Shown here piece after piece: positions 3 through 22,822 of a stretch of 64,000 bases of DNA; the stretch's first letter is position 1, and each line of letters opens with the position of its first letter. The translations under genes were made by a program, and so were the position numbers. The stretch lies in the NCBI RefSeq assembly GCF_003841465.1, contig NZ_REFZ01000004.1, forward strand, positions 62,001 through 126,000, in the 5' to 3' direction. This DNA comes from Natrarchaeobius oligotrophus. Lineage in GTDB: Archaea; Halobacteriota; Halobacteria; Halobacteriales; Natrialbaceae. The notes below the pieces were generated by a model. That model saw only the letters and a list, made by a program, of their open reading frames with translations. It did not search any database and was not told where the DNA came from.

Positions 3-2036
3 GACAGGAACGCCCTCCGAGCGGCGCTTTCGGACGTGCTCGCACTGCGTCTCGAAACGGCGGTCGACGAACTCGAGCGAGGGGAGTACGAGGCGGCCGA
101 GGCGGTCGTCGACGACGTCTACCGGGTCCGAGTCGAGCAGTATCGGACGATCGTCGATGCGACGGGCGGGTACGATTCCGAAGACCGTCCCGTAGACGAA
201 CCGACGCCAACGGAAGCGTTCGATCGGGCCGGAATCGATCTACGTACCCTTATCACCGCGCTCGAAGCGTACGACGAAACTCAGCGCGAGTACGAACGGG
301 CGATCGAGCGCGGCGACGAAGAGACGGGACTCGACCGCGCACGCGAACTCGACGTGCTGGCGGCCGACGTCGCCGCGGCGAACGAGAGCGTTCAGAAACA
401 GGTCGCCGCGGCCGATCCCGTGACCGACGTCGATCTCGACGCCTCCTCCGATCGCCTCGAAACGGTCGATCGTCGCATCCAGCGGGAGCTGGCTGACGTT
501 CGATCGAGTCAGTTCGAGACGACCACGATGACTGCCGATGCCGACGCCGACGCGGTTTCGGTGACGGATTCGATCACGGTGTCCGGAACGGTTCGCGTCG
601 AAAACGAGAGTCGGTCGGACGACGAAACCGACCGATGGCCGGCAGACGATCCACTCGTCGTCGAAATCAACGGGAACGGACACGAACTCGACGATCACGA
701 CGACGGACGGTTTAGCGTCGAGTATCGGCCACGTCCGCTCGCACCCGCGGTCGACGAATTGCGCGTCCGGTACCGTCCGTCTCCCGGCGTCGACAACGTC
801 GGAAGCGAAGCGACCGTCCCCGTCTCGATCGAACCGATCGAACCGTCGCTCGAACTCGAGAGCACCGACGAGGTCGCGTACGGAGAGACGGCGTCGTACG
901 CGGTCCACCTCACGGCGGGCGACGACGCCGTCGACGGCGCGCCGATTACGGTGTCACTCGGCGACACCGAACTCGAGACGGTAACCACAGTCGACGGCAC
1001 GGCGACCGGTGAGGTGACGGTTCCCGCGTCAGTTCCCGCGGGTGAACGAGAACTTTCCGCGCGGGTCGCGGTCGACGAGCGAGCGATCGAACCGGCGGTG
1101 GTTCGAAACCAGGTGACCGTCCGCGAGCGTGAGACTCGACTCGGAATCGGCTCGGCGCGACTCGACGACGGAATCCGGGTCGGAGGGGTACTGACGACCG
1201 CCGACGGGACCCCCGTTCGCGACCAGCCGGTGGTGCTGTCGGTCGACGAAACCTCCGTCGTCGTCACGACGGGCGAAGACGGCCGCTTCGACGAGACCGT
1301 TTCGACGTCGACGTCGGACGAGGAACTGACGGTGAACGCGACGTACGACGGTGCCCATACCAACCTGGCGTCGACGAGCGCCGAGACGAGCGTCGGCGGT
1401 CAGCGATGGGGGACGCTCTCGTTCCTTCCCGCCGGACCGGTGATCGCACTCGTGGTTTGTCTCGTCGTCGGAGGCGTCCTCGTCGGTGTGTGGGCACTCG
1501 GAAGATTCACCCGCGGTCCCGACCCGCTCGCGCGCTTCGTTCGCTCGAGGATCGGCCCCGTCTCTCAGCAGCGACGGTCGATCGACGAGCGAGCGGTTCT
1601 GGTCGAGGAATCCGACGAACCGAACCCGGTGGACGACCGGGAACCGACCGACGCCGGCGATTCGAGTAGCGGCGACGGACGCGTTGACGATACCTCGAGG
1701 CGCGTAGACGAACTGCTCGATCGAGCGTCCGATCACGTCTCGCGGGGGCGGCCAAACGAGGGCGTCCGGTTGGCGTATACGGCGGTTCGGCTGGCGCTTC
1801 GATCGACGATCGACGACGACAGGACGAACACCCACTGGGAGTTTCGACGGCGGTACTCGGGCCCGCACGAGGACGAACTCGCGCACATTACCGAACAGTA
1901 CGAACGCGCGGCGTTCGGACGCGAAACGGTGACGGAGGAGGTTGCCTCGGACGTCCTTCTGGACGCCTACGCGCTCGTCAAACTCGTCGACGCTGACGCC
2001 TCCGACGACCTCGAGGAGATTTCCGTCGAGCGTTGA
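3..2036 (+). CDS. Membrane-anchored surface protein with Ig-like domains and DUF4129-type tail (5' partial)
   Basis: The reading frame is open to the left edge, so the true start lies outside the window; the GTG at 36 is only the first internal candidate. The visible part begins with an alpha-helical acidic region. Beta-rich segments follow, including one like a carboxypeptidase-regulatory or Ig-like fold (encoded around 1180-1370, ending in a TYDG motif). A single hydrophobic segment is encoded at about 1420-1500. The charged cytoplasmic tail ends in a helical domain containing AYTAVRLALR and HWEFRRRY, resembling the DUF4129 domain often attached to transglutaminase-like surface proteins. 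The function is not known. The next gene starts 34 bp downstream on the same strand, so the two may be co-transcribed. Confidence 0.75.
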   Translation, partial: DRNALRAALSDVLALRLETAVDELERGEYEAAEAVVDDVYRVRVEQYRTIVDATGGYDSEDRPVDEPTPTEAFDRAGIDLRTLITALEAYDETQREYERAIERGDEETGLDRARELDVLAADVAAANESVQKQVAAADPVTDVDLDASSDRLETVDRRIQRELADVRSSQFETTTMTADADADAVSVTDSITVSGTVRVENESRSDDETDRWPADDPLVVEINGNGHELDDHDDGRFSVEYRPRPLAPAVDELRVRYRPSPGVDNVGSEATVPVSIEPIEPSLELESTDEVAYGETASYAVHLTAGDDAVDGAPITVSLGDTELETVTTVDGTATGEVTVPASVPAGERELSARVAVDERAIEPAVVRNQVTVRERETRLGIGSARLDDGIRVGGVLTTADGTPVRDQPVVLSVDETSVVVTTGEDGRFDETVSTSTSDEELTVNATYDGAHTNLASTSAETSVGGQRWGTLSFLPAGPVIALVVCLVVGGVLVGVWALGRFTRGPDPLARFVRSRIGPVSQQRRSIDERAVLVEESDEPNPVDDREPTDAGDSSSGDGRVDDTSRRVDELLDRASDHVSRGRPNEGVRLAYTAVRLALRSTIDDDRTNTHWEFRRRYSGPHEDELAHITEQYERAAFGRETVTEEVASDVLLDAYALVKLVDADASDDLEEISVER

Positions 2037-2070
2037 TTCCAGTTCCGATCAGTTTATTATTACGCGAACG

Positions 2071-3150
2071 ATGCAAGAGCGTATGGGGACTGGCCTGCTG
2101 TCTCGGTTCTCGACGCCCCTCTCGAAACGGATTTTTGCTCCGGATATCGTCGCCGTCGTCTGCGTCACGGCGTTGACGAACGCCGTGATCTTCCTCCCGA
2201 TCCTGAGAGAGAGCGCGTTGCGGGTGCCGTTCGGACTCGCGTTCCTCTTTTTCGTCCCCGGGTACGCGTTCGTCGCGGCGCTGTTTCCCGAGGACGAGTC
2301 CAGGTCGACCGTCTCGGATCGCACCGCTCGAGTGACGCAAACCGAATCCGAGACGGGTGACGGGGGAATTTTCGGAGTCGCATCGAAAACGGGAATCGAC
2401 TGGGTCGAACGGCTGGCGCTTTCGTTCGGTCTGAGTGTCGTGATCGTGACGCTGCTCGGCTTGCTTGGTGATCTCTCGTCGTGGTCGGTTTCTCTCGAGA
2501 TGATCGCGTTTTCCGTCACCGGATTCGTGCTGGTCTGCAGCGGTGTCGCCGTTGTACGCCGTCAGCGCCTGGCACCAGCGGATCGGTTTCGGCTACCGTT
2601 GGGATCCCACCTTTCCGCCGGTAAGAGTGGGCGAACCGACGGCGAACTACGGATCGATACGCTCGCGAACGTCCTCTTGATCGCTTCGATCGTGTTCGCG
2701 TTCGGAATCGGTACTCTCGCCGTCGCCGCTCCGGCGGGTGGCGAACAGTTTTCGACGGTGTCGATCGTGACTGAAAACGACGACGGAGAGATGGTTGCCG
2801 ACGGATATCCCTCCGAAATCGACCACGGCGACGACTTCACGGTGTTCGTCGACCTCGGAAACCGAGAGCACAGGGAGGTGACGTACACTGTCGTCGTCCT
2901 CGAACAGCGCCTCGGTGATGGGGGATCGAACGAAACGTCCGTCTCGGAACAGCGAGAACTCGACCGATTCGAGACGACGCTGGCACACGGCGAGTCCGGC
3001 GTCTACGAACAGAACGTCGAGCCGACGACGACGGGCTACGTACGCGTCGCCTGGCTACTCTACCCGGACGACGTGCCATCGGAGCCGTCGCTCGAAAATA
3101 CGGAGTATCACGTTCACCTGTGGTTGAACGTGATCGAATCCGACGACTGA
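2071..3150 (+). CDS. DUF1616 family membrane protein
   Basis: About 359 residues. The N-terminal third carries several hydrophobic segments, including RVPFGLAFLFFVPGYAFVA, which is the hallmark of DUF1616 proteins. These are common in archaea next to surface-glycan and secretion loci; their function is unknown. The C-terminal half follows a further membrane segment and is a beta-rich extracytoplasmic domain with the DUF1616-type pattern (TVSIVTE, YTVVVLEQR, and a WLNV ending). Two in-frame ATG codons exist, at 2071 and 2083. A TATA-like TTATTATTA at about 2053-2061 would favour 2083 if the mRNA is leaderless; 2071 is given as the longer form. The 3' end overlaps the convergent gene by 37 bp. 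Confidence 0.8.
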   Translation: MQERMGTGLLSRFSTPLSKRIFAPDIVAVVCVTALTNAVIFLPILRESALRVPFGLAFLFFVPGYAFVAALFPEDESRSTVSDRTARVTQTESETGDGGIFGVASKTGIDWVERLALSFGLSVVIVTLLGLLGDLSSWSVSLEMIAFSVTGFVLVCSGVAVVRRQRLAPADRFRLPLGSHLSAGKSGRTDGELRIDTLANVLLIASIVFAFGIGTLAVAAPAGGEQFSTVSIVTENDDGEMVADGYPSEIDHGDDFTVFVDLGNREHREVTYTVVVLEQRLGDGGSNETSVSEQRELDRFETTLAHGESGVYEQNVEPTTTGYVRVAWLLYPDDVPSEPSLENTEYHVHLWLNVIESDD

Positions 3151-3638
3151 TCCGCACCTCTCGCGTTTCGATACCGCCGGAGTGCAAGCGCGAGCGTGAT
3201 CGCGACGAGTGCCGGCCACCGATCGCTACTCCGAAAGAGCCCGGCTGCGGGCGGTTGGTACCCGGAGATCGGCCAGAAGACGGCGTAGGTGTTTCCGGAC
3301 CACGTGATCAACAACGAATCGAGTACGTGGTGTGAGCCCGAACCGACCGCGAGAAGAGCCGCGACGCGTACTCTGTAGCCGGGGGGAACCATCAACGCGC
3401 CCAGCGCGATCAGAACGATCGACCCACCGAGCGTATGCAACGCAGCCCACTCCCAGGGGAGTCCGGTGACAGCGGTAACCGTCTCGTCGCTGACGAGAAG
3501 CCCGATCTTTTTGACGTCCGGTAACACCGCTCCGATCATCACCACCGTCACGTGACGCGAATCGGCCCACTCGTAACGAATGGCGATCAGTGAACCGAGA
3601 ACGTAGCCCGCCAGCACGTGCGTCAGCAGATCAGGCAT
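3114..3638 (-). CDS. Metal-dependent hydrolase-type membrane protein (DUF457/YdjM family)
   Basis: About 174 residues with four or five hydrophobic segments. The N-terminus MPDLLTHVLAGYVLG and the later GAVLPDVKK match the conserved His and Asp motifs of the DUF457 (YdjM, LexA-binding inner-membrane hydrolase-like) family. A third His-containing motif, LHTLGGSIVL, is also present. The ATG at 3638 places the first motif right at the N-terminus; a GTG three codons upstream is an alternative. The start overlaps the stop of the upstream gene by 8 bp, implying translational coupling. The substrate is unknown. Confidence 0.8.
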   Translation of the reverse strand: MPDLLTHVLAGYVLGSLIAIRYEWADSRHVTVVMIGAVLPDVKKIGLLVSDETVTAVTGLPWEWAALHTLGGSIVLIALGALMVPPGYRVRVAALLAVGSGSHHVLDSLLITWSGNTYAVFWPISGYQPPAAGLFRSSDRWPALVAITLALALRRYRNARGADQSSDSITFNHR

Positions 3639-4083
3639 CTCGCTCACCGCTCCGATCGCATCGCCGCTCCACGTCGGGTTCTTTCACCGAGGGTCCCCCA
3701 CGCTCCGTTTCCTCGGCCGTCGTTCGGCTCCGCCGTTTCGTGAACGACCGCAGTGGTCGGTGGTGCGACCGCGGAACGAACGTCCACCGCCGGAGGTCGA
3801 ACCGAAACCCCTGGACGGTTCTGACAGCCACCCAGAGGCAACCGACGACCGAGACGGCGTACATGTAGTACACCTCCCACGGCTCGCGGGAACCGGGCCA
3901 CTCGCGAAGCGGGAATACGGCCTCGAGCGCCACCGGGTTTCGAACGGTATCGCCACGGGAGATCGCCTCGAGTATTGTGGGTTTACTCGATCCGTACCAG
4001 ATCGGAAGTGCAACGAGGGCGGCGACGAGTATCGAGAGACAGAGCAGTCGTCCGCACCGACCGAGTGACTTCATTGCCGACAT
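3631..4083 (-). CDS. Small membrane protein of unknown function
   Basis: A 150-residue protein with two predicted membrane segments, one near residues 13-30 (LLCLSILVAALVALPIW) and one near 75-92 (YYMYAVSVVGCLWVAV), then a basic, low-complexity cytoplasmic tail. I do not recognise a family. It is coupled to the downstream DUF457-type gene by an 8-bp overlap and lies divergently from the lasso-peptide gene B1. Its promoter region and that of B1 share the AT-rich interval 4084-4214. Confidence 0.55.
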   Translation of the reverse strand: MSAMKSLGRCGRLLCLSILVAALVALPIWYGSSKPTILEAISRGDTVRNPVALEAVFPLREWPGSREPWEVYYMYAVSVVGCLWVAVRTVQGFRFDLRRWTFVPRSHHRPLRSFTKRRSRTTAEETERGGPSVKEPDVERRCDRSGERDA

Positions 4084-4214
4084 TATTCAACGTACAGCAA
4101 TCATAAGTATATGTGGTTCGATCGAGCAACGACTCGTCCGACCGACGGAAACGGGATTGTAATCTATAGATACATACTTATACCAGAAGGTTCTTTTGAA
4201 ATATTATTAGGAAC

Positions 4215-4523
4215 ATGGGGGAATCCAACCTCTCGGAATCGGACGAAGTCGTCGCGAGCAACGATCATCTCTCGACGAATATCGACGGTGAAACGGTGAT
4301 TTTACACCTCGATTCGGGAACGTACTACGGCCTCAACGAAGTCGCCTCCGAGATCTGGAGTCGACTTCAAGAGCCACGAACGGTCGGTGAACTATGCGAA
4401 GAGATACTCGCAACGTACGAGATCTCTCCCGATCGGTGTACGAACGACGTCGAGTCGGTGCTGGCCGATCTAGCCGACGCCGATCTCGTCGAGATCGAAA
4501 GAAACTGCGACGGCGGTTCCTGA
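4215..4523 (+). CDS. Lasso peptide biosynthesis B1 protein (PqqD-like RiPP recognition element)
   Basis: A 102-residue stand-alone PqqD/RRE-like protein. The pattern of beta-strands followed by winged-helix-like helices is visible: VILHLDSGTYYGLNEVASEIW, then the helix pair TVGELCEEILATYEI and CTNDVESVLADLADADLVEI. In lasso pathways this protein binds the leader of the precursor and presents it to the peptidase and cyclase. It is followed after 10 bp by the B2 gene and then by the cyclase, which fixes the assignment. An AT-rich stretch (about 4160-4212) immediately upstream is the likely promoter of the B1-B2-C unit. Confidence 0.9.
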   Translation: MGESNLSESDEVVASNDHLSTNIDGETVILHLDSGTYYGLNEVASEIWSRLQEPRTVGELCEEILATYEISPDRCTNDVESVLADLADADLVEIERNCDGGS

Positions 4524-4533
4524 ATCTACAGGT

Positions 4534-5019
4534 ATGGGCCGAGTATACGGGTTTCTGAGGATCTCCTCGGGAGACAAGTTCAGAGCGTTGCTGGCGGCGG
4601 CGTTACTCGTCGCTGTCCGATTCAGTTTCGTACTGGTGTCGTTCGCCTCGTGCAGACGAGTGTTGATCGGGACGACTGCACGGCTGTCACCGATCGTCCC
4701 CGGCTCACCACCACCGGCCCGCGTCGCGTGGGCCGTAGACGCGACGGATCGGAATCTTCCGGGGAGTCGAACCTGTCTGATGCGGTCGCTAACGTCAGAG
4801 GCGATTCACCGACTGTACGACCACGACGTCGTCCATCAGATCGGTGTCGATCCGATCGGTGATGAGCGTCCCGACGGTCTGGAACCTGCGGGCACACCCA
4901 ACGGCGGATTCGAAGCCCACTCTTGGATCGAGTGTGAGGGCGAGGTTATTCTCGGTGACCTGGGTGATCTCTCACGCTTCGAACCGCTACCGCCACTGAA
5001 CGGAACCGAACGATCGTGA
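4534..5019 (+). CDS. Lasso peptide biosynthesis B2 protein (transglutaminase-like leader peptidase)
   Basis: A 161-residue protein of the Transglut_core3 (PF13471) type, the cysteine protease that removes the leader from lasso precursors. A hydrophobic N-terminal helix (about residues 18-38) precedes the catalytic part. The candidate catalytic Cys is in SRTCLMRSL (Cys81), the His in FEAHSWIE (His129), and an Asp follows in LGDLG (around 142), in the order and spacing of the family. The gene lies between B1 and the cyclase. Its last codons overlap the cyclase start as GTGA, so the two should be translated together. Confidence 0.92.
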   Translation: MGRVYGFLRISSGDKFRALLAAALLVAVRFSFVLVSFASCRRVLIGTTARLSPIVPGSPPPARVAWAVDATDRNLPGSRTCLMRSLTSEAIHRLYDHDVVHQIGVDPIGDERPDGLEPAGTPNGGFEAHSWIECEGEVILGDLGDLSRFEPLPPLNGTERS

Positions 5020-6893
5020 GCGGAATTGCCGGCGTCTTCGACCGATCACGTGGCGGCGTCGATCCCGACGTGATCGAGACGATGTCCGAATCGATCGCTC
5101 ACCGTGGCCCGGACGGGGGCGGACGCTGGTGTGACGAGCGCGTGGGGCTCGGCCACCAGTTACTGGCGACGACGCCGGAGGCGTCGTTCGACGCGCAGCC
5201 GCTTCGGGACGGACAGTTCGTCGTTACAGCCGATGCCCGCATCGACAACCGGGCCGAGCTGCTCTCGACGCTCTCGATTTCGAAACCGGCCCACCGGATT
5301 CCCGACAGCGAACTGTTGTTGCGAGCCTACCGCCGGTGGGGGAAGCGGTGCGTCGAGCGACTGATCGGCTCGTTCGCGTTCGCCATCTGGGACGCGAACG
5401 AGCGCACCCTCTTTTGCGGACGCGACCGCGTCGGCGTCAAGCCGTTTTATTACCACCGGACGGACGATCTGCTGGCGTTCGCCAGCGAACCGAAGGCGTT
5501 GCTATCCCTCTCCAGTATCGATGGAGTCGTCGACGAGGCGAAAATCGGCGAGTTCCTGACCGGTGCGTTCGATGACGAAACGCGATCCTATTACGAATCG
5601 ATCGCGCGGCTTCCGCCCGCACACACGATGACGGCCGGTCCGTCCGACGTCGACGTTCGTCGCTACTGGACGCTCGATCCGACCAGAACGATCACGCTCG
5701 AGTCGGATCGAGCGTACGAACGGCGTTTTCGTGAGCTACTCGAACGGGCCGTCCGGTGTCGTCTCCGATGCGACGGCCCCGTCGGCTCCGACCTCAGCGG
5801 CGGTCTGGACTCGTCGTCGATTACGGTCGTTGCCCGCGACCTGTTGCCGTCGGATGCGCCGTTACACACGTTTTCGAACGTCTACGAAAACGCGCCCTCG
5901 AGCGACGAACGCGAGTTCATCGATACGGTGGTCGAACGCGAGGGAATCGACCCGCACTACGTCTTCGCTGGCACGGCAGCACTCCCCGATCGAGCGAGCG
6001 TACGGACGTACTTCGATCGACCGCCGCACAACACGTTACACTTCGCGAGGTGGGAGAAAACCAAGCGCGCACGAGACGTCGGCGTCGACGTGATGCTCGG
6101 GGGCGACCTCGGGGATAGCGCGGTCGGCTACGGGCTCGGACTGTTGCCCGAACTGTTTCGAACCGGCAGGCTTCGACACCTTTTCAGCGAGCTCCGCGCG
6201 ATCAGCGATCTCGTCGATACGCCAGTACGACAACTCTTCGTGAGACAGACGCTCTATCCGATGGTTCCGGAGTTCGTTCGGTATCGGTACCGACGGCTTC
6301 GGAACCGGCCCGTTCTCGAGGAGGAGGCAAACCCCACGCTGTCGCCCGAATTCGTCGATCGGACTGATCTCCGATCCCGGTACGCCGCGGCCACTGCGAC
6401 GGGAACGACGCTCACGCGCACGGACCGGGAGTGGCAGTGGCAGTCGATCACGGCGGCGACTAACGCCGCGAACTTCGAGACGACCGATCAGATCGCCGCC
6501 GCGTTCGGCATCGAGCCGCGGTATCCGTTCACCGATACGCGTCTCCTCGAGTTCTCGCTGGCGATACCGCCCACACAGCGCCTCTCGAACGGAATGACTC
6601 GATCGATCCTCCGTCGGTCGCTTTCCGATCTCCTTCCCGACCGAGTTCGCACTCGGCCCTGGAAGACCATGATGAACGAAGCGTTCTGGAACGCCCTCGC
6701 CGAGGAAGAGCCGAGACTACGAGCGCTCACTGCCGATCCCGGTCCGCTCGAGCGGTACGTCGACGTCGTCGACCTCGAAGCGGCGCTCGAGCGATTCGAC
6801 GACCGGCCGACGACCCGCGACGCCCGGGCGCTCTGGCGGGCGCTCTCGCTCGCGACGTGGCTCGAGACGACTTCGGCGTCCGATCACCCGTAG
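5016..6893 (+). CDS. Lasso peptide macrolactam synthetase (asparagine synthetase-like, McjC-type)
   Basis: A 625-residue protein with the two-domain asparagine synthetase B plan. The N-terminal Ntn-hydrolase-like domain starts MSGIAGVFDR and carries the RGPDGGG and GVKPFYYH motifs. The C-terminal ATP-pyrophosphatase domain carries SDLSGGLDSSS near residue 260. In lasso clusters this enzyme adenylates the Asp/Glu side chain and closes the isopeptide bond with the new N-terminus. Residue 2 is Ser, where glutamine-hydrolysing asparagine synthetases have the catalytic Cys, so the glutaminase half is probably inactive, as expected for a cyclase. The GTG start is set by the GTGA overlap with B2. 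The precursor gene follows after a 131-bp AT-rich gap. Confidence 0.93.
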   Translation: MSGIAGVFDRSRGGVDPDVIETMSESIAHRGPDGGGRWCDERVGLGHQLLATTPEASFDAQPLRDGQFVVTADARIDNRAELLSTLSISKPAHRIPDSELLLRAYRRWGKRCVERLIGSFAFAIWDANERTLFCGRDRVGVKPFYYHRTDDLLAFASEPKALLSLSSIDGVVDEAKIGEFLTGAFDDETRSYYESIARLPPAHTMTAGPSDVDVRRYWTLDPTRTITLESDRAYERRFRELLERAVRCRLRCDGPVGSDLSGGLDSSSITVVARDLLPSDAPLHTFSNVYENAPSSDEREFIDTVVEREGIDPHYVFAGTAALPDRASVRTYFDRPPHNTLHFARWEKTKRARDVGVDVMLGGDLGDSAVGYGLGLLPELFRTGRLRHLFSELRAISDLVDTPVRQLFVRQTLYPMVPEFVRYRYRRLRNRPVLEEEANPTLSPEFVDRTDLRSRYAAATATGTTLTRTDREWQWQSITAATNAANFETTDQIAAAFGIEPRYPFTDTRLLEFSLAIPPTQRLSNGMTRSILRRSLSDLLPDRVRTRPWKTMMNEAFWNALAEEEPRLRALTADPGPLERYVDVVDLEAALERFDDRPTTRDARALWRALSLATWLETTSASDHP

Positions 6894-6990
6894 GTCAGTT
6901 CGAAGCGTCCGCGGTCGTCTCCTCACGCAGTTCTACTGCCCTCCCGGATGGTTCGGCGAGGGTGATCTCAAGTGTATGATTGCAATGGGA

Positions 6991-6999
6991 AAATTTATG
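6991..6999 (+). promoter_or_regulatory. Candidate TATA box of the lasso precursor gene
   Basis: AAATTTATG lies about 27-30 bp before the precursor ATG at 7025, the spacing expected for a leaderless haloarchaeal transcript. The surrounding 6965-7024 interval is far more AT-rich than its flanks. This suggests the precursor has its own promoter, separate from the B1-B2-C unit, as is usual where the precursor must be made in excess. Confidence 0.55.
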
Positions 7000-7024
7000 T
7001 TAGTATAACCTGTATAACAACCTG

Positions 7025-7168
7025 ATGTCGAGAGAATCAAACGACACGTACGAGAGTCCGAAGGTAACCGAATTCGGCTCAGTGGAATCGTTAACCGAGA
7101 GCGACAAGGTCGGCACCGGCGAAGACGAGTACTCCGGAGCGACGTCGCTCACCGGCTCCGTCGTGTGA
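7025..7168 (+). CDS. Lasso peptide precursor (47 residues)
   Basis: Very short gene recognised from its context and leader. The leader has Tyr9, Pro12, a hydrophobic residue at 14, Gly18 and Thr24, which fits the YxxPxLxxxGxxxxxT pattern bound by lasso B1 proteins, with exact spacing. If Thr24 is the usual penultimate leader residue, cleavage after Glu25 gives a 22-residue core starting Ser26-Asp-Lys. The core then has Glu at core position 8 and Asp at position 9 as ring acceptors. The tail carries Tyr36 and ends Gly-Ser-Val-Val. It lies directly downstream of the cyclase, with its own TATA-like element, and converges on the kinase gene 118 bp away. The family assignment is strong; the exact cleavage site and ring size are inferred. 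Confidence 0.85.
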   Translation: MSRESNDTYESPKVTEFGSVESLTESDKVGTGEDEYSGATSLTGSVV

Positions 7169-7286
7169 GCGTCCGACGAGAACGAACGACAGTTCGAGCC
7201 GGTGAGCCCCACCGAAACGAACTCGATCTCGCTGGATAACCGTCACGATCGCACTTTTATTCGACGAAAGCGGAGCAGCGGACGCT

Positions 7287-8240
7287 TCACTGATGCGAGA
7301 GGTGAGTACGCCCGCTCGAGTGAAGATCGTCGACGACTGCCTCGACGAGAGCCGGTAACGACCGGTGATCCCTGGGTCGCCGAAGCCGCCGAAACGGACA
7401 CGTTTTCGCGATCGTCGTGCACTGGCGGAAGTTCACCGCAGTCGCGTCGGTTTCGGCGAGCATTCCACCCGTGTACGTCCGTGAAACCAGCTGGGACACC
7501 CGCTCGTGAGGATCGAGACGATCGATAGCGAGGGAATCGTCCTCCTCGAGAAGGTAACAGGCTGCGAGCGGTGCCGGTCGCCGAGCGGCGTCGAACTGCT
7601 TGTATCGCTTCTCGGAATCGGCGTCGCTGGCCGGACCGGTCGTTCCCTCGACGTCGAGCGCCTCGACCGCGTCGGGCATCAATCGAAGCTGGGGAACGCC
7701 CGGCAGTACCGCTGGATGGCTCTCGTCGACCCTGATGCCGACGACGTCGTCTTCGAGAATCGTATGGCCGGCGGCGTCGAACGCAGCAGCCGTCGTCGAC
7801 TTTCCGGCACCGCGGGGACCGAGGAAGACCGCGGCTCGTCCGTCGACGGCCACGGCGCTCGCGTGGAGAACGAGCTGTCCACGCTGGTGGAGAAGCACGC
7901 CCATCATCTCGTTCTGGAAGAGGCGACGAACGATCTTCGGCGGCACCGCTCCCGGCGTCGTCTCGAATTCGGCTACCGGATCGAACGACACGCGTCTCCC
8001 GTCCTCGACGAGGAACGTACCGATCGTGTCGTACGACAACCGACACGTATTCGGACCGGCCCGAATCCGGCGTCCGCCTTCGCCGGCGACGGACGTCGGA
8101 ACGGGATCGAGTTCGTCTCGGCGTAGTTCGACGTCGATCGCCTCGGCGGTTCCTTCCACCTGTGGAAGTTCCGGAAGCGAGAACGTCGATTCGATCGTCA
8201 GTCCGTACGCCGTATAATAGGTCAGTGCGACGTTATTCAT
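7287..8240 (-). CDS. HPr kinase-like protein of the lasso cluster (paeninodin-type kinase relative)
   Basis: A 317-residue protein with the HprK-related kinase fold. A beta-rich N-terminal half leads to LHASAV near residue 125 and the P-loop GPRGAGKST at about 141-149. An acidic LEDDVVGIR motif at 162-170 is the expected catalytic Asp region. In paeninodin-type lasso clusters, relatives of this kinase phosphorylate the precursor on its C-terminal Ser. Here the precursor ends Ser-Val-Val, so the target residue may differ. The gene is last in the minus-strand arm, after the ABC exporter, and has its own possible TATA element upstream. Confidence 0.85.
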   Translation of the reverse strand: MNNVALTYYTAYGLTIESTFSLPELPQVEGTAEAIDVELRRDELDPVPTSVAGEGGRRIRAGPNTCRLSYDTIGTFLVEDGRRVSFDPVAEFETTPGAVPPKIVRRLFQNEMMGVLLHQRGQLVLHASAVAVDGRAAVFLGPRGAGKSTTAAAFDAAGHTILEDDVVGIRVDESHPAVLPGVPQLRLMPDAVEALDVEGTTGPASDADSEKRYKQFDAARRPAPLAACYLLEEDDSLAIDRLDPHERVSQLVSRTYTGGMLAETDATAVNFRQCTTIAKTCPFRRLRRPRDHRSLPALVEAVVDDLHSSGRTHLSHQ

Positions 8241-8260
8241 ACCACACGTACGTTATCATA

Positions 8261-8270
8261 AGTATTTAGT
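8261..8270 (-). promoter_or_regulatory. Candidate TATA box of the kinase gene
   Basis: Read on the minus strand, ACTAAATACT is centred about 26 bp before the kinase ATG at 8240, in an AT-rich pocket within the 186-bp gap behind the ABC exporter. This is consistent with a leaderless transcript for the kinase in addition to read-through from the exporter. Confidence 0.4.
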
Positions 8271-8426
8271 GATTCGTAAATTTTCCCGGCGAACGTCGAT
8301 CGTTTCCGATCGTCGATTCGGACGGCGGTCGAGCGAGAGCGGCTGTACCGACGTATCGGTCCGACCGCAGGACAGGCGCGGTTGCACCGCTCCGGACGTA
8401 CGACGGACCGTCCGGACCGACGACGG

Positions 8427-10250
8427 TCACGTCGACGGCGGCGTCTCGAGTTGTGAATCGTACAGCGCCGCGTAATGGGACTGGCCGTGGACGAGTTCTC
8501 TGTGGGTACCCGATTCGACGACCTCACCCCCGACGAGCGTGTAAATTCGATCGGCGTCCCTGACGGTCGATATCCAGTGGCCGATGACGATCGTCGCGTA
8601 GTTCCGGTCCATCCCTTCGATGCCCTCGAGAATCGCGTCCTCGGTCGGTGAATCGAGTTCACTCGTTGCCTCGTCGAGAACGAGTACGTCCGCGTCCGTC
8701 AGGAGTGCTCTTGCGATCGCGACGCGCTGTCGTTGTCCGCCCGAGAGTCGGACGCCGTCGTCTCCGATCCAGCTATCGAGGCCGTTCGGGAGGTCGTCGA
8801 GGAAGGCCGACACTCGACTGATCTCGCAGACGCGATCGACCGCCGCGTCGCTCGCGTCCTGATTTCCGACGGTCAGATTGTATCGGAGTGTCCCCGTGAA
8901 AAGAAAGGGGTTCTGGGGGACGACGGCCACCCGATCCCGCCAACGCCTACGATCGATTTCGTCTAACGCGACGCCATCGACGAGGACGGATCCGTCGTCC
9001 GGCTCGTACAATCCGGCGACCAACGAAACGATCGTCGATTTACCGGCACCCGAGGGACCGACCAGCGCGATCGTCTCGCCGCGTTCGACGGACAGATCGA
9101 CGTCGCGTATGCTCCCGGAGTGAGATCCGGTAGCCGCATCATCGTATCGAAAACGAACCCCGTCGAACTCGAGCGTCGTCGCCGGGGTCGGCGGCGGATT
9201 ACCTGACGTTTGCTCGGCGTTGCGCCCGAGGTCGTCGACGAGACGCTGCGTTCGGACCAGATGCGGAAGCGCACCGTCCAGCGAGTAAATAGTATCGTTA
9301 ATTTGACTTATGAGCGGTGAGAGTCGAAACATCGCGAACAGAAAGACACCCAGTGCGGCGAACGACAACGCCAGATACTCGATAGCGAGGTACACGAGCG
9401 CGAATACGACGAACGCGTTGAGTAGCTGATTGAACTTTCCCAGCGCGATCTTGTTTCGCTCGAGTCTGACTCGCGTATCGACGAGTCGATCGTGAGCGCG
9501 ACGGTACCGCTCGTTCAGATCGCCGCGCATGGCGAACAGCTTCGTTTCGCGTCGGCCCCGAACGCCGGCGTTGATCAGCGACTGAATCTCTTCGTTGGCG
9601 GACGCGATCTCGTCACCGATCCGGTAGCCCGGCGTGAGTACGTATCGCGTGAGAAAGACGACGGCTCCCAGGACGACGACCGTCATCATCGTCAGCACGG
9701 GCGACAGTACCAGCGCGACCGAACCGTACGCGATCGCAAAGAACACCTTCTCCACCGCGCCGAGCAGGTCGGTCAGGACGCGTGCGGATCGTTGGGTTTC
9801 GGTTACGATCGTGTTCGTCACCTCGTCGGAATCGACCCCGTCGACGTACGAAATTTCGGCGGTCAACAGGGCCTCGTAACACTCCCGTCTGAGGTGTGCC
9901 ATGTATCCGGTCACGAGCGACGCCTGCAGCCACCCGACGAGAAAGCTCGCGCCGAATCGGATCGTCATCACGACGGCGAGACCCAGGATCAGCGTCTCGA
10001 GCGTCGCGGTGACGCCGATCGCATCGTAGAACTGGACGAACGTTCCGACCAGCTCCGACGGTTCGTCAGCGAGGTCGCCGTCCGTCTGTGCCGCTTCGAT
10101 GATCGGGAGCAAAAACGTCAGCCCGATCCCCTCGAAGAGAGCAGCGAACAGTTTCATCGCGAGAAGCGCCGCCGCGTGCGCCGGCCGATAGCGGACGACC
10201 CGCTCGAGCGTTCGAACCTTCTCGCGCAGATTCAATCGTGGTTCACTCAT
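8427..10250 (-). CDS. ABC transporter, fused permease-ATPase (lasso peptide exporter, McjD-like)
   Basis: A 607-residue half-transporter. The N-terminal membrane domain has six predicted helices (roughly residues 20-330). The nucleotide-binding domain carries Walker A GPSGAGKST, signature LSGGQRQR, Walker B VLVLDEATSELDS and the switch His in VIGHWIST. Such exporters are the D component of lasso clusters, providing secretion and self-immunity. It lies between the nucleotidyltransferase-like gene (18 bp upstream) and the kinase. A general peptide or lipid exporter would look the same; the assignment to the lasso peptide rests on context. Confidence 0.9.
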   Translation of the reverse strand: MSEPRLNLREKVRTLERVVRYRPAHAAALLAMKLFAALFEGIGLTFLLPIIEAAQTDGDLADEPSELVGTFVQFYDAIGVTATLETLILGLAVVMTIRFGASFLVGWLQASLVTGYMAHLRRECYEALLTAEISYVDGVDSDEVTNTIVTETQRSARVLTDLLGAVEKVFFAIAYGSVALVLSPVLTMMTVVVLGAVVFLTRYVLTPGYRIGDEIASANEEIQSLINAGVRGRRETKLFAMRGDLNERYRRAHDRLVDTRVRLERNKIALGKFNQLLNAFVVFALVYLAIEYLALSFAALGVFLFAMFRLSPLISQINDTIYSLDGALPHLVRTQRLVDDLGRNAEQTSGNPPPTPATTLEFDGVRFRYDDAATGSHSGSIRDVDLSVERGETIALVGPSGAGKSTIVSLVAGLYEPDDGSVLVDGVALDEIDRRRWRDRVAVVPQNPFLFTGTLRYNLTVGNQDASDAAVDRVCEISRVSAFLDDLPNGLDSWIGDDGVRLSGGQRQRVAIARALLTDADVLVLDEATSELDSPTEDAILEGIEGMDRNYATIVIGHWISTVRDADRIYTLVGGEVVESGTHRELVHGQSHYAALYDSQLETPPST

Positions 10251-10268
10251 CTGGTGACACTCGATAGG

Positions 10269-11480
10269 TTACTGTCGGCCGATCTTGCGGCCGGAACCGG
10301 TCAGCAATCGGGTCAGGACCGCTCGTCCGATCCGAAAGCCGCGTACGACGGCGTACAGTGGAACGAGTGGACGCGGGAGCGACACGAGCTCTATCTCCCC
10401 CCGGTCGGGCTCGACTGCGCCTTTGATCCAGAACGCGATTCTGTCCCGGCGTTTGTCGAGGGTTCGTGCCTGATACCGTTTCTCGTCCAGGTACCAGTAC
10501 GACGCGTCGTCGAACAGCCGGTCACGAACGTGAGTGGTCAGTGATTCGATCTCCGGATCGGACTCGATCGCTCGACGAACGGACGCCGGGAGCTCGAGAC
10601 CGAGAACCCGGTCGGTGACCGAAAGCCCAAGGTATAGCATTCGTTCGCGGTTGTGGCGTCTGGCTCGTTCGATCACCGTCTCCCAGTCGAACGAGTGCGA
10701 GCGAACGTACGCGCTGACGTCACAGATCCACATGAAACGTTCCCAGCGGTGGCGCGTCCCGTGAACGCAAAGCGTCAACAGCCGATCCTCGTCTGAGAGG
10801 ACGGGAACGTCGGTTCCAGCGACCGAAAGCGTCGACCGACGGTCCCAGACCGTCTCCAGACGAATTGCGGACGGGAATCGTCGCGAGACGACGCGCCAGT
10901 GCAGTTCGACCTCGAGCGGCTCGTTGCGGTGGGTAAACGCGTAGTCGCGGCTGTAACGCGCGTATGCCCACCGTTGGCGCTCGGTCAACTCGTCGGTCGT
11001 CTCGAGGACGAAGCGGTGTTCGTATCCCCTGTCGAGAAGGATCGATCTGAGCGCTGGAATCTCCTCACGCGAGACGAGAAAGTCCAGATCGCCGAACGCG
11101 CGTCGACCGACCGACCCGAGTGCGACCTCGCTGACTATCGGCCCGCGGTACGGAATCGCCCTCACGCCTTCCGCTCGAAACGCCGACGAAAGCGATGCGA
11201 CTTCCTGAAGCATCCGAAGGTTCCGTCGTGACACCTGTCGGCTACGGTCGGCGAGCGATTCGAGCGTCTTTTTCGGCATCGATCCGACGGAGTGCTCGCG
11301 TACCGCCTCGAGGACCAGCGAACTGAGCCCGTGTCGTATCGTTAGCTCTCGTACTCGGTCCCAGTCCACGCGGTCGTCCGTCCAGTCGAACCGCGCCGGT
11401 CGTTCGCCGGCGGCGGCTCTGGCGCACTCGGTGACGAACCGTTCCGCCGTCCGCTGTGTTTCGTTTCCCCTACAATTCAT
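10269..11480 (-). CDS. Nucleotidyltransferase family protein of the lasso cluster (NTP_transf_5-like)
   Basis: About 403 residues. The diagnostic segment is AFGDLDFLVSREE, a GD-x-D-type nucleotidyltransferase motif, followed by EVELHWRV and the DRLLTLCVHG/RWERFMWICDV region typical of PF14907 proteins. Members of this family recur in lasso clusters that also contain a HprK-like kinase and an ABC exporter; their reaction there is unclear. The ATG at 11480 is preferred over a GTG five codons upstream. It is followed 18 bp later by the exporter gene, so they likely form one operon. Confidence 0.85.
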   Translation of the reverse strand: MNCRGNETQRTAERFVTECARAAAGERPARFDWTDDRVDWDRVRELTIRHGLSSLVLEAVREHSVGSMPKKTLESLADRSRQVSRRNLRMLQEVASLSSAFRAEGVRAIPYRGPIVSEVALGSVGRRAFGDLDFLVSREEIPALRSILLDRGYEHRFVLETTDELTERQRWAYARYSRDYAFTHRNEPLEVELHWRVVSRRFPSAIRLETVWDRRSTLSVAGTDVPVLSDEDRLLTLCVHGTRHRWERFMWICDVSAYVRSHSFDWETVIERARRHNRERMLYLGLSVTDRVLGLELPASVRRAIESDPEIESLTTHVRDRLFDDASYWYLDEKRYQARTLDKRRDRIAFWIKGAVEPDRGEIELVSLPRPLVPLYAVVRGFRIGRAVLTRLLTGSGRKIGRQ

Positions 11481-11556
11481 GATATGGTAAGACACACCAT
11501 CATTTCAGTACGCTACTGGTCGGTGAGACGAAGTCCCTCTACGTGTTTCGACCGCA

Positions 11557-11706
11557 TCACGACGAATCCGACGTAACGCAGGCGACGATCTGTGGGATTT
11601 CACACTCTCGACAGATGAGTGCGGGTCGACTTTTGTGAGTGCCTCGCTCCAGCGCCAACCCGCAGTTCGGACAGACAGTCTCGTCCGGAATTTCGTCTAG
11701 ATCCAT
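11557..11706 (-). CDS. Small zinc-ribbon protein (49 residues) heading the minus-strand lasso arm
   Basis: Short gene starting at the ATG complementary to 11704-11706. It carries two Cys-x-x-Cys knuckles, CPNC at residues 12-15 and CREC at 32-35, the pattern of a four-Cys zinc ribbon, plus a further Cys at 43. A well-placed TATA element (11727-11737) sits about 26 bp upstream of the ATG. The nucleotidyltransferase gene begins 76 bp downstream on the same strand. It could be a regulator or an accessory factor of the lasso cluster. Small zinc-ribbon proteins are abundant in haloarchaea, so a link to the pathway is inferred from position only. Confidence 0.65.
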   Translation of the reverse strand: MDLDEIPDETVCPNCGLALERGTHKSRPALICRECEIPQIVACVTSDSS

Positions 11707-11726
11707 ACCAGACTCCTGTTCCTCTA

Positions 11727-11737
11727 TATAATAAATT
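11727..11737 (-). promoter_or_regulatory. Candidate TATA box for the zinc-ribbon / nucleotidyltransferase / exporter arm
   Basis: AATTTATTATA on the minus strand is centred about 26-27 bp upstream of the zinc-ribbon ATG at 11706, ideal for leaderless transcription. It is the strongest promoter-like element ahead of the minus-strand lasso genes. Confidence 0.6.
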
Positions 11738-11823
11738 TAGTGATTTAATCCGTATTTTTATTACCACTGTCGATACAATATCAACGATCATATAATAATG
11801 TACTCGTGGAAGAGATTCAATCG

Positions 11824-11834
11824 AAATATAAATA
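11824..11834 (+). promoter_or_regulatory. Candidate TATA box of the epimerase gene
   Basis: AAATATAAATA is centred about 28 bp before the ATG at 11858. This spacing supports 11858, not the in-frame ATG at 11798, as the real start. Confidence 0.55.
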
Positions 11835-11857
11835 GTGGAAACAAACAATCGGCTGGT

Positions 11858-12793
11858 ATGGAACTTTCCGATCGGAGCGTCCTCGTGACCGGCGGCGCGG
11901 GACTCGTTGGATCAGCACTGGCCCGCCGACTCGCCACCGAGAACGACGTTCTGGTAGTCGACGACCTCTCGAACGGTGTCAGGGAGTCCGTTCCAGAGGC
12001 GGCCGAGTTCGTCGAGGGAGACGTCGCTTCGGACGAGACCCTAGAACGCGTCGTCACGTCGGATCTCGACATCGTCGTCCACTGTGCCGCAGCCGATAAG
12101 TACGTCAACAGCGACGAACCGCGCTCACAGTTCGAGTCGAACGTCGCGATGACGCACTCGCTGCTCGAGCGCGTGAGCACCGTCGGCGTTTCGGACGTCG
12201 TGTTCACCTCGTCGTCGACCGTATACGGCGAAGCACCTCGGCCGACGCCGGAAGATTACGCACCGCTCGAGCCGATCAGCGTCTACGGAGCGGCGAAACT
12301 CGCCGAGGAATCGATACTCTCGGTGTACGCACACACCCGTGACGTAACCGTCTGGAACTTTCGGTTTGCAAACGTCGTCGCGCCTCGCGTCGGCGCAGGG
12401 GTGATTCCGGACTTCGTCGAGAAACTCGAACGCGATCCGGAGACGCTGACGATTCTCGGCAACGGTCGACAGGAAAAATCGTACATGCACGTCGAAGACT
12501 GCGTCGATGCGATCCATCACGTCGTCGAACGCGCGCCATCGTCGGCGGGACCGATGCAGACGTACAACCTTGGAACGAAAACGACGACGTCGGTCGATCG
12601 GATCGCCGACATCGTTAGCGAGGAGATGACGCTCGACCCGGCCTACGAGTACACGGGAGGTGATCGCGGCTGGACCGGCGACGTCCCCAAAATGCGTCTC
12701 TCCATCGAGAAACTCGCGGCACTCGGGTGGGAACCAGAACACAGTAGCGACGAAGCGGTACGGAAGGTTGCGAGAGAACTGGTTCGACGCTGA
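11858..12793 (+). CDS. NAD-dependent epimerase/dehydratase (extended SDR, GalE-like)
   Basis: A 311-residue extended short-chain dehydrogenase. The nucleotide-binding motif GGAGLVGS lies at residues 12-19. SSSTVYGE and the catalytic Tyr-x3-Lys in SVYGAAKLAEE follow. The C-terminal part has GNGRQEKSYMHVEDC and YNLGT, typical of UDP-sugar 4-epimerases and related sugar-nucleotide enzymes. The start is chosen by the TATA box and by the SDR fold beginning at once. It opens the surface-glycan island, followed 59 bp later by a flippase; the product probably supplies an activated sugar for that glycan. The exact substrate cannot be read from sequence. Confidence 0.88.
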   Translation: MELSDRSVLVTGGAGLVGSALARRLATENDVLVVDDLSNGVRESVPEAAEFVEGDVASDETLERVVTSDLDIVVHCAAADKYVNSDEPRSQFESNVAMTHSLLERVSTVGVSDVVFTSSSTVYGEAPRPTPEDYAPLEPISVYGAAKLAEESILSVYAHTRDVTVWNFRFANVVAPRVGAGVIPDFVEKLERDPETLTILGNGRQEKSYMHVEDCVDAIHHVVERAPSSAGPMQTYNLGTKTTTSVDRIADIVSEEMTLDPAYEYTGGDRGWTGDVPKMRLSIEKLAALGWEPEHSSDEAVRKVARELVRR

Positions 12794-12852
12794 GCCCGAA
12801 CAACTCTACCTATCATGATACGCACAACAGTACGGTTACACCGATCCGCCCG

Positions 12853-14319
12853 ATGACCGGGACGGATACGCTCGTTTCGCGGTTCAAAATCGAGTTGGGG
12901 GGTCAGCTGGTCGCGGCGATCTCGGGCGCGTGTTTGATCGTCGCACTCGCTCGCTTTCTCGAACCCGAAGCGTACGGACTCCTGTTCTTTGCGATCTCGA
13001 TTCTGTCCGTCCTGATGGTGGCGACGAAGCTCGGAATCGGGCGGTCTGCCGGACGCTATCTCTCCGAATACAAGGAAACGGATCCCACGCAGATCCCACA
13101 CATCGTTCGGACGTCGCTTCTGTTGAATCTCGGGACGATTATCGTCGTTGGCGTCGGTCTCTTGGTCGGACACCGGTTGCTCGCGGACCTGGTAGGAGAG
13201 CCCGAGCTCGCTCCACTTCTGGCTCTCGGCGTCGCGTACGTCGCGTTCGGAACGCTCACCAAGTACGTTCGGCTGGTTCTCCAGGGCTTCGAAGCCATCG
13301 AACTGGCGGCAATTGTTCACGCGATCGACCGCGGCGGACGACTGCTGTTTGCGATTGCGCTCGTCGTCTCAGGGTTCGGTGCGGCCGGTGCGCTGGGCGG
13401 ATATATTCTGGGGTACGTGTTCGCTACCGGAGTCGGACTCGGGTTGATTTACACCCGGTACTATCGAACCGTTCGAGAAGTCGGCCCTGTCGAGCCGAAC
13501 CTCCGTCGTCGAATCGCGGAGTATACAGTTCCGCTAACGGCGACGAGCACGGCGAACGTCGTCGAAAAGCAGATCGATACGGTACTGGTCGGATTCTTTC
13601 TTACGCCGGTTGCGGTGAGCTTCTACGTCATCAGTAAACAGGTCGTCGAGTTCGTCGAAAAGCCGGCGACTGCGCTCGGGTTTACGCTCTCGCCAACGCT
13701 CGGAGCCGAGAAGGCCAGTGACAATCTGGATCACGCTCGCGAGATCATCGAGCTGGCGCTCGTCAAATCGCTCCTGTTGTACGTGCCCGCTGCCGTCGGC
13801 CTGATACTCGTCGCCGAGCCGACCATCCACCTCGTTTTCGGCGTCGAGTACGCCGGTGCGGTTCCCGTCCTCCAGATACTGGGAGTGTACGCCGTCTTTC
13901 GCACCGTGACGAAGGTCGTCGGCCACGGCCTCGATTTCATGGGCCGAGCCCGCGACCGTGCGATCGTCAAAGGGGTGACTGCTGCGCTCAACGTTCTGTT
14001 AAACGTCGTGTTAATTCCGCGAATCGGCGTTACCGGAGCCGCGATCGCGACGGTCACGACGTACGGAATCTTCACCGCCGCGAACCTGTACTTCGTCCAC
14101 GCCGAACTCGGGCTTCGCACCGGATACCTCCTCAGACAGATCTCGCTCGTCGCGGGGGTAACCGTGGGTATGGCGGCCGTCGTCTCGTTTTTCCTGACGT
14201 ACGTCTCGAGCGCGCTGTCGCTCGTGGTCGTCGTCGCGATCGGAGCGTTCGTCTGGGGAGTACTTTCAGTCTCCACGGGTCTCCTCGATCCGAACGCTCT
14301 GATCTCGCGTGTGACGTGA
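12853..14319 (+). CDS. Oligosaccharide flippase (Wzx-like, polysaccharide biosynthesis family)
   Basis: A 488-residue polytopic membrane protein with about 12-14 predicted helices. The N-terminus FKIELGGQLVAAISGACLIVALARFLEPEAYG is characteristic of the PF01943/RfbX-type flippases. These translocate lipid-linked oligosaccharides across the membrane for protein glycosylation or exopolysaccharide export. The central TSTANVVEKQIDTVLVGFFL segment is also typical. It stands between the epimerase and a large membrane protein in the same direction and fits the glycan island. Confidence 0.9.
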   Translation: MTGTDTLVSRFKIELGGQLVAAISGACLIVALARFLEPEAYGLLFFAISILSVLMVATKLGIGRSAGRYLSEYKETDPTQIPHIVRTSLLLNLGTIIVVGVGLLVGHRLLADLVGEPELAPLLALGVAYVAFGTLTKYVRLVLQGFEAIELAAIVHAIDRGGRLLFAIALVVSGFGAAGALGGYILGYVFATGVGLGLIYTRYYRTVREVGPVEPNLRRRIAEYTVPLTATSTANVVEKQIDTVLVGFFLTPVAVSFYVISKQVVEFVEKPATALGFTLSPTLGAEKASDNLDHAREIIELALVKSLLLYVPAAVGLILVAEPTIHLVFGVEYAGAVPVLQILGVYAVFRTVTKVVGHGLDFMGRARDRAIVKGVTAALNVLLNVVLIPRIGVTGAAIATVTTYGIFTAANLYFVHAELGLRTGYLLRQISLVAGVTVGMAAVVSFFLTYVSSALSLVVVVAIGAFVWGVLSVSTGLLDPNALISRVT

Positions 14320-22724: not shown

Positions 22725-22822
22725 ACGGTCGGACGTGCTCACTCCGTTGCGCGCGACCTCCCTGCGTTCAAATCCCGCCGGTTCCGATGCTCGCCGCTCG
22801 CGGATTTGCTCGCGGCGAGAAG

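Follow-up and report, generated by a model that had tools for sequence, protein, structure and literature searches.

Comparison with described clusters

The paeninodin and pseudomycoidin lasso peptide clusters of Bacillota, which are often found beside polysaccharide genes, include separate B1 and B2 genes and genes for a macrolactam cyclase, a precursor, an ATP-binding cassette (ABC) exporter and an HprK-like kinase with a His-Lys-Asp-Asp residue set, together with a nucleotidyltransferase gene in the case of pseudomycoidin. Counterparts of all of these cluster genes were found in a 64000 bp stretch (the window) of a haloarchaeal genome of 4.61 Mb (genome G000, contig C4; coordinates 62001–126000), where they very likely form an intact lasso-type ribosomally synthesized and post-translationally modified peptide (RiPP) cluster with the pathway proposed below. 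The original prediction for the window had named a complete lasso gene set at coordinates 4215–11706; all of the named genes are present, the last coordinate being the start of a 49 aa zinc-ribbon open reading frame (ORF). Profile searches, which could have placed B2 or the cyclase outside the lasso families, gave scores above the NCBIfam cut-offs for B2, the cyclase and the precursor leader.

However, the window leader carries Tyr where paeninodin and pseudomycoidin have Trp, the C-terminal Ser is absent, the genes are arranged in two convergent arms, and the haloarchaeal kinases group apart from six sampled bacterial kinases (98/95). Membership of the paeninodin family was rejected, as B1 scored 68.5 bits against the lasso_PqqD_Bac model (NF033536; cut-off 80), the leader has no WxxP motif, the C-terminal residue is Val, and the lasso_PadeA_fam model (NF033524), which matched one of 28 sequences scanned, did not match the window precursor. 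The paeninodin-type likeness proposed for the cluster thus holds for the combination of a kinase with a nucleotidyltransferase and an exporter, which paeninodin-like and pseudomycoidin clusters share, but does not extend to family membership. In Priestia, the same core genes are located beside an annotated paeninodin precursor, with no annotated nucleotidyltransferase gene nearby.

The Bsf system of Bradymonas (PMC10368454) resembles that in the window in its YxxPxL leader with Tyr at −17 and in having a kinase that acts on the precursor. It differs in Ile at −2, a Gly1–Asp8 ring and phospho-Ser3, whereas the window precursor has Thr at −2, no Gly1 and a conserved Ser near the C-terminus, and in the subtype to which it belongs (type 1, below) the Asp is at a variable distance from the leader. 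The clusters of bacterial linear polyphosphorylated peptides (LPPs; PMC13381572) also combine a RiPP recognition element (RRE), an HprK-like kinase, a nucleotidyltransferase and an MsbA-like exporter, and are found in capsule loci, but they have a SipW-like peptidase and no cyclase, whereas the window has B2 and a cyclase, and its cyclase-less haloarchaeal sisters have B2. No signal peptidase match was found among ten window proteins scanned.

In the searchable literature, the validated archaeal RiPPs are lanthipeptides (PMC12144867), and no characterised archaeal lasso peptide was found. The plasmid cluster of Halopiger xanaduensis SH-6 (NC_015658) has the same genes and a type-1 core (NKEGVASD...LLGSI), but the precursor is missing from the gene table used, the kinase region is annotated as two hypothetical proteins, and the Asp would be at core position 10 rather than 9, as in the window, if cleavage occurs after T-x. 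An RRE-RiPP cluster found by antiSMASH in Haloarcula hispanica Boch-4 (PMC10093198) likewise includes lasso B1, B2 and kinase genes in a haloarchaeon; the paper text makes no mention of a cyclase, and this cluster probably belongs to the cyclase-less type described below.

Lasso B2 genes scoring over the NF033537 cut-off were found in 12 of 125, 7 of 170 and 23 of 146 genomes of three haloarchaeal families (42 of 441 in total). Many weak matches in long frames (mostly 700–1200 aa), obtained in a search of the class with PF13471, were excluded from these counts. Rarity was ruled out by the family-wide searches and, as archaeal lassopeptides had already been counted in antiSMASH surveys (PMC12144867) and the RefSeq annotation already labels the H. 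xanaduensis B2 as a lasso protein, the cluster is not the haloarchaeal outlier it had been suggested to be. The adaptation to high salt that had been suggested was seen in B1, where the net acid excess is 19.6% compared with 6–9% in three bacterial B1 proteins, but was otherwise modest.

Genes of the cluster and their products

The B1, B2, C and A genes are located in this order on the forward strand, and K, D, N and the small zinc-ribbon ORF on the reverse strand. As predicted, the two arms converge on the precursor and kinase genes, A and K being separated by 118 bp at their 3′ ends.

B1 (4215–4523) encodes an RRE protein of the PqqD fold (PF05402, 7.8e-22) that matches the solved lasso B1 structures TbiB1 (5.4e-13) and 9x90_B (7.3e-13) and is predicted to bind the YxxP motif of the leader. 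The adjacent B2 gene (4534–5019) encodes a transglutaminase-like cysteine leader peptidase that scored 73.5 bits with lasso_biosyn_B2 (NF033537; cut-off 33) and 4e-14 with PF13471, and its Cys81, His129 and Trp131 residues are invariant in 50 of 50 homologs. The reading frames of B2 and C (5016–6893) share 4 bases at the B2 stop, and the product of C, a lasso macrolactam cyclase of the asparagine-synthetase fold, scored 606 bits with NF033535 (cut-off 525) and carries the ATP motif SGGLDSS. At the position of the glutaminase Cys it has Ser ('MSGIAG'), a feature shared with the bacterial lasso cyclases compared but not with two AsnB-type proteins. A plain asparagine synthetase was ruled out by the score with the lasso cyclase model and the missing glutaminase Cys.

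The HprK-like precursor kinase encoded by K (7287–8240) gave weak matches to HprK-related models when searched as a single sequence (TIGR04352, 1.5e-8, under the cut-off), and is homologous to the product of the gene adjoining the annotated 'paeninodin family lasso peptide' of Priestia (tblastn, 2e-19). A profile of 17 kinase homologs matched HprK structures at 2.2e-8, and His126, Lys147, Asp164 and Asp165 are invariant in the kinase alignment (A2); these correspond to the His-Lys-Asp-Asp set needed in lasso kinases (PMC9266682). No second copy of the kinase was found in the same genome. No convincing PDB match was obtained for B2, for the precursor or for the kinase searched as a single sequence. 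D (8427–10250) encodes an MsbA-like ABC exporter with the membrane (PF00664, 2.2e-10) and ATPase (PF00005, 2.9e-33) domains in a single chain, for which the best NCBIfam model was MsbA (9.4e-97, under the cut-off). N (10269–11495) encodes a PF14907 nucleotidyltransferase (202.9 bits; cut-off 31.2), a candidate second tailoring enzyme resembling PsmN and LppN.

The precursor gene A (7025–7168) encodes 47 aa, MSRESNDTYESPKVTEFGSVESLTE / SDKVGTGEDEYSGATSLTGSVV, where the slash marks the cleavage predicted from Thr(−2). It scored over the cut-off of the lasso leader model NF033521 (19.8 bits compared with 19), and its leader includes Tyr(−17), Pro(−14), Val(−12) and Thr(−2). Two residues follow the conserved Ser at the C-terminal end (G-S-V-V). 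A TATA-like box (TTTATG; 6994–6999, forward strand), 31 bases 5′ of the precursor ATG, is conserved upstream of type-1 precursors, 20 of 23 of which have a match to TTTATA at five or six of the six positions between −36 and −24, most commonly at −31. The same count in 1000 shuffles had a mean of 3.3 and a maximum of 9, the 23 upstream stretches being from related genomes and hence incompletely independent. This indicates that the precursor has its own promoter, and its transcript is probably leaderless.

The ratio of nonsynonymous to synonymous substitution rates (dN/dS) over three type-1 pairs, some of them close to synonymous saturation, was 0.05–0.24 for A and 0.10–0.31 for the other cluster genes. 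The genes, the family membership of B2, the cyclase and the leader, the catalytic residues, the conservation, the selection and the promoter are established. The catalytic residues, purifying selection and conserved TATA box together support a functional cluster, and the recurrence of the gene set (below), with purifying selection and a conserved precursor promoter, argues against a chance assembly.

For the chemical steps, the threading, the identity of the modified Ser and the role of the product, we infer the following pathway. A would be transcribed from its own promoter, and B1 would bind the leader motif Y(−17)xxPxV. K would phosphorylate a serine, for which the conserved Ser in the G-S-V tail is the best candidate, and the leader would be removed by B2. 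The cyclase would activate the core acid, the invariant Asp at precursor residue 34, and close the macrolactam around the tail, N would add a further group onto the phosphate, perhaps a sugar from the neighbouring polysaccharide genes, and D would export the product.

Precursor subtypes among haloarchaea

The surroundings of 43 B2 genes over the NF033537 cut-off, in stretches no longer than 20 kb, were searched using profiles of the window proteins, with the window as the 44th locus. A cyclase gene was found in 24 of the 44 loci (numbered here with the prefix L) and was absent from 20, with a divergent fragment in L100 left out of the count, and the whole or nearly whole gene set recurs in about 24 cyclase-bearing haloarchaeal loci. 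Three precursor subtypes were delimited by precursor sequence and gene content, and trees were read against them afterwards.

Type 1, to which the window belongs, comprises 28 precursors in 21 loci and has the core [N/D/E]-K-x-G-x3-D. In most cases this core is succeeded by x-[YWF]-[ST] and, close to the C-terminal end, by G-S-[V/I]. In the trees, one separate clade is formed by the type-1 kinases (21 rows; 96/86) and another by the type-1 cyclases (22 rows; 99/96), and a conserved precursor with a lasso leader and its own promoter occurs wherever a type-1 cyclase is encoded. What appears to be new is a precursor subtype with its own cyclase and kinase clades, an invariant K-x5-D core and G-S-[V/I] near the C-terminus.

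Type 3, found in L037, L044 and L093, has G-x-H-F-S-x-V-D-GNSGTTGNRG after T-x, a textbook Gly1–Asp8 lasso. The three type-3 cyclases form a separate clade (100/99), as do four kinases, namely those of type 3 and that of L050 (99/93). In the same three loci, a single B1/B2 pair accompanies both type-1 and type-3 precursors.

Type 2 consists of B1-B2-A-K-N-D without a cyclase (L031, L032, L034, L035, L036, L039, L043, L045, L046, L048, L049, L051, L053, L054, L055 and L056); D is absent from the stretch read in L034, and no precursor was recognised in L036 and L039. No lasso cyclase over the cut-off was found in the cyclase-less genomes tested except G404, where the match came from its other, cyclase-bearing locus. 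The type-2 clusters, which have kept the lasso peptidase B2, appear to be a haloarchaeal counterpart of bacterial LPPs. The type-2 precursor MKEYETPSVETYGTVEEKTNWWDHDDGYGKWS is identical in nine loci, each in a different genome of one genus (e.g. L043, coordinates 9780–9878; L045, 9375–9473), and in a tenth (L056, 9302–9400) the final Ser is replaced by Asp; such constancy is unusual for an antibiotic-like peptide. Another cyclase-less cluster (L031, 14726–18429) includes six precursor genes with nearly identical leaders, most of the cores carrying G-S-E-P or S-E-P. In L100 (region of 10928), a divergent, broken-looking asparagine-synthetase-like gene, possibly a decaying cyclase, is located between the exporter gene and three precursor genes.

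The cluster of Natrarchaeobius chitinivorans lies in two parts on separate contigs, with A-C-B2-B1 in L058 and K-D-N in L105 (10080–14167), and the frames are open in both. The retention of both halves suggests that both modules are needed.

Ring spacing and alternative readings

Type-1 precursors share one leader geometry, defined by Tyr(−17), Pro(−14), Thr(−2) and an aliphatic residue at −12, which is also that of the experimentally cut Bsf leader, where Tyr is at −17 and residue −2 is Ile (PMC10368454). The Lys-to-Asp spacing (K-x5-D) is fixed in 28 of 28 type-1 precursors and, though this motif doubled as a criterion for listing the 28, such a precursor was found at all loci that encode a type-1 cyclase. 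However, the Thr-to-Lys distance varies from 3 to 7 residues, and with cleavage after T-x the invariant Asp would be core residue 9 in 13 of the precursors and residue 10–13 in the other 15, only one of which has any acid at 7–9. As lasso rings are described as closing at position 7–9 (PMC10368454), the Asp in half of type 1 would lie beyond the ring under the textbook cut. With that cut, an acid would be at core position 7–9 in 14 of the 28, including the window precursor (Glu8 and Asp9 after T-E/S), the core of which appears compatible with the ordinary ring rule. Neither this unusual spacing nor the cyclase-less sister clusters had been noticed in the original prediction.

The cluster is a lasso cluster by every gene-level test, and its predicted ring geometry is unusual at the level of the family. 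Weighing against the proposed pathway are the 14 type-1 precursors that would have no acid at core position 7–9 if B2 cuts after T-x, the window precursor not ending in Ser, unlike the substrates of paeninodin-type kinases, and the kinase, which as a single sequence is far from the curated models. B2 may instead cut further along the precursor, which in the window would be before SDK, DK or K, and the Asp six residues past the Lys would always close the ring; this would give a ring of 7, 8 or 9 residues starting at K, at [N/D] or at the residue preceding [N/D]. Closure through the Lys side chain and larger rings are other readings of the spacing. A hint that the first residue can be Lys comes from the L091 precursor (T-Q/K1RGRGQD7), the locus of which is not in the type-1 cyclase clade. 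It is a tentative proposal, to which we give somewhat less than an even chance, that type-1 cyclases form a macrolactam set by the invariant Lys-x5-Asp independently of the distance from the leader, closing it through the Lys side chain or a displaced-cut N-terminus, and so fall outside the bacterial Thr(−2)/7–9 rule.

That these cyclases specifically join the Lys side chain to the Asp (i, i+6), so that 2–6 residues before the Lys stay free at the N-terminus and the product is a ring with two tails rather than a textbook lasso, is unlikely. The fixed Lys-to-Asp and variable Thr-to-Lys distances would be explained, the constant spacing of the leader to T(−2) agrees with the cut Bsf leader, and in L037, L044 and L093 one B1/B2 pair is shared by type-1 and T-x/G1..D8 precursors while the cyclase clades are distinct. 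However, we know of no lasso cyclase that uses a Lys side chain, and in L091 the Lys would simply be residue 1. The [N/D] before the Lys is also nearly as conserved as the Lys itself, and Asn as the ring-forming first residue has a precedent in metanodin (PMC12670498).

Directly after the window cluster come an epimerase gene and flippase-, membrane-protein-, glycosyltransferase- and uridine diphosphate (UDP)-sugar-dehydrogenase-like genes, all but the epimerase named from sequence without a family search. Homologs of the window polysaccharide genes were found near 19 of 24 cyclase-bearing loci compared with 3 of 20 cyclase-less loci, counts that are descriptive because the loci share ancestry. 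Paeninodin and LPP clusters are likewise found within capsule loci (PMC13381572), and from these settings a peptide with a role at the surface or in biofilms seems slightly more plausible than an antibiotic. The system could be at heart an LPP-like phosphopeptide exporter. Its functional modification would then be the phosphate together with the N-dependent group, the cyclase would be optional, and the product would act at the cell surface or on surface polysaccharide and not be an antibiotic. Sister B1-B2-A-K-N-D genomes without a lasso cyclase of their own over the cut-off, bacterial LPPs with K, N and D and no cyclase (PMC13381572), and the polysaccharide genes near most cyclase-bearing loci are in line with this, but it is improbable, given that the polysaccharide neighbourhood tracks the loci with a cyclase, that the cyclase is under purifying selection (dN/dS 0.10–0.22), and that N. 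chitinivorans retains it although K-D-N is located elsewhere.

The genes might instead belong to the adjoining polysaccharide locus and make no peptide, with an asparagine-synthetase-like amidotransferase, an ABC flippase and an exopolysaccharide (EPS)-type HprK/PqqD pair. The genes that directly follow the cluster and a weak match of B1 to TIGR04353 (HPr-rel-A PqqD) point this way. This is, however, extremely unlikely, as the lasso B2 and cyclase models are over their cut-offs, the XrtA/PEP-CTERM amidotransferase model gave 226.9 against 816.9, and a conserved precursor with a lasso leader and promoter is present at every type-1-cyclase locus. An EPS-type HPr-rel-A system was ruled out by its lower scores. 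The family offers 28 precursors, three precursor subtypes to which kinase or cyclase clades correspond, natural relatives that lack the cyclase, and one cluster in two parts. It makes the choice of ring by the cyclases, the phosphorylated serine and the role beside polysaccharide loci testable in Haloferax volcanii, a host already used successfully for archaeal lanthipeptides (PMC12144867).

Neighbouring genes

The zinc-ribbon ORF (11557–11706, reverse strand), upstream of N, encodes a putative accessory protein with homologs in L057 (5.6e-16), L060, L037 and L061. No RNA element was found at the cluster in an Rfam search of 3000–13000, and integration at a tRNA gene is unsupported, as the sole tRNA gene of the window is at 22822. 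Divergent from B1 on the reverse strand are genes for a YdjM-like membrane protein (3114–3647; PF04307, 5.5e-10) and a 150 aa membrane protein (3631–4083), of uncertain cluster membership. This pair also recurs beside B1 in L057, L058, L059, L060, L061 and L093. In the window, the region beside B1 (36–4083) includes, in addition to these two, a large surface-type ORF and a DUF1616-like ORF, and the surface-type ORF accompanies the pair in L057, L058, L059, L060 and L061, with L093 having the pair only.

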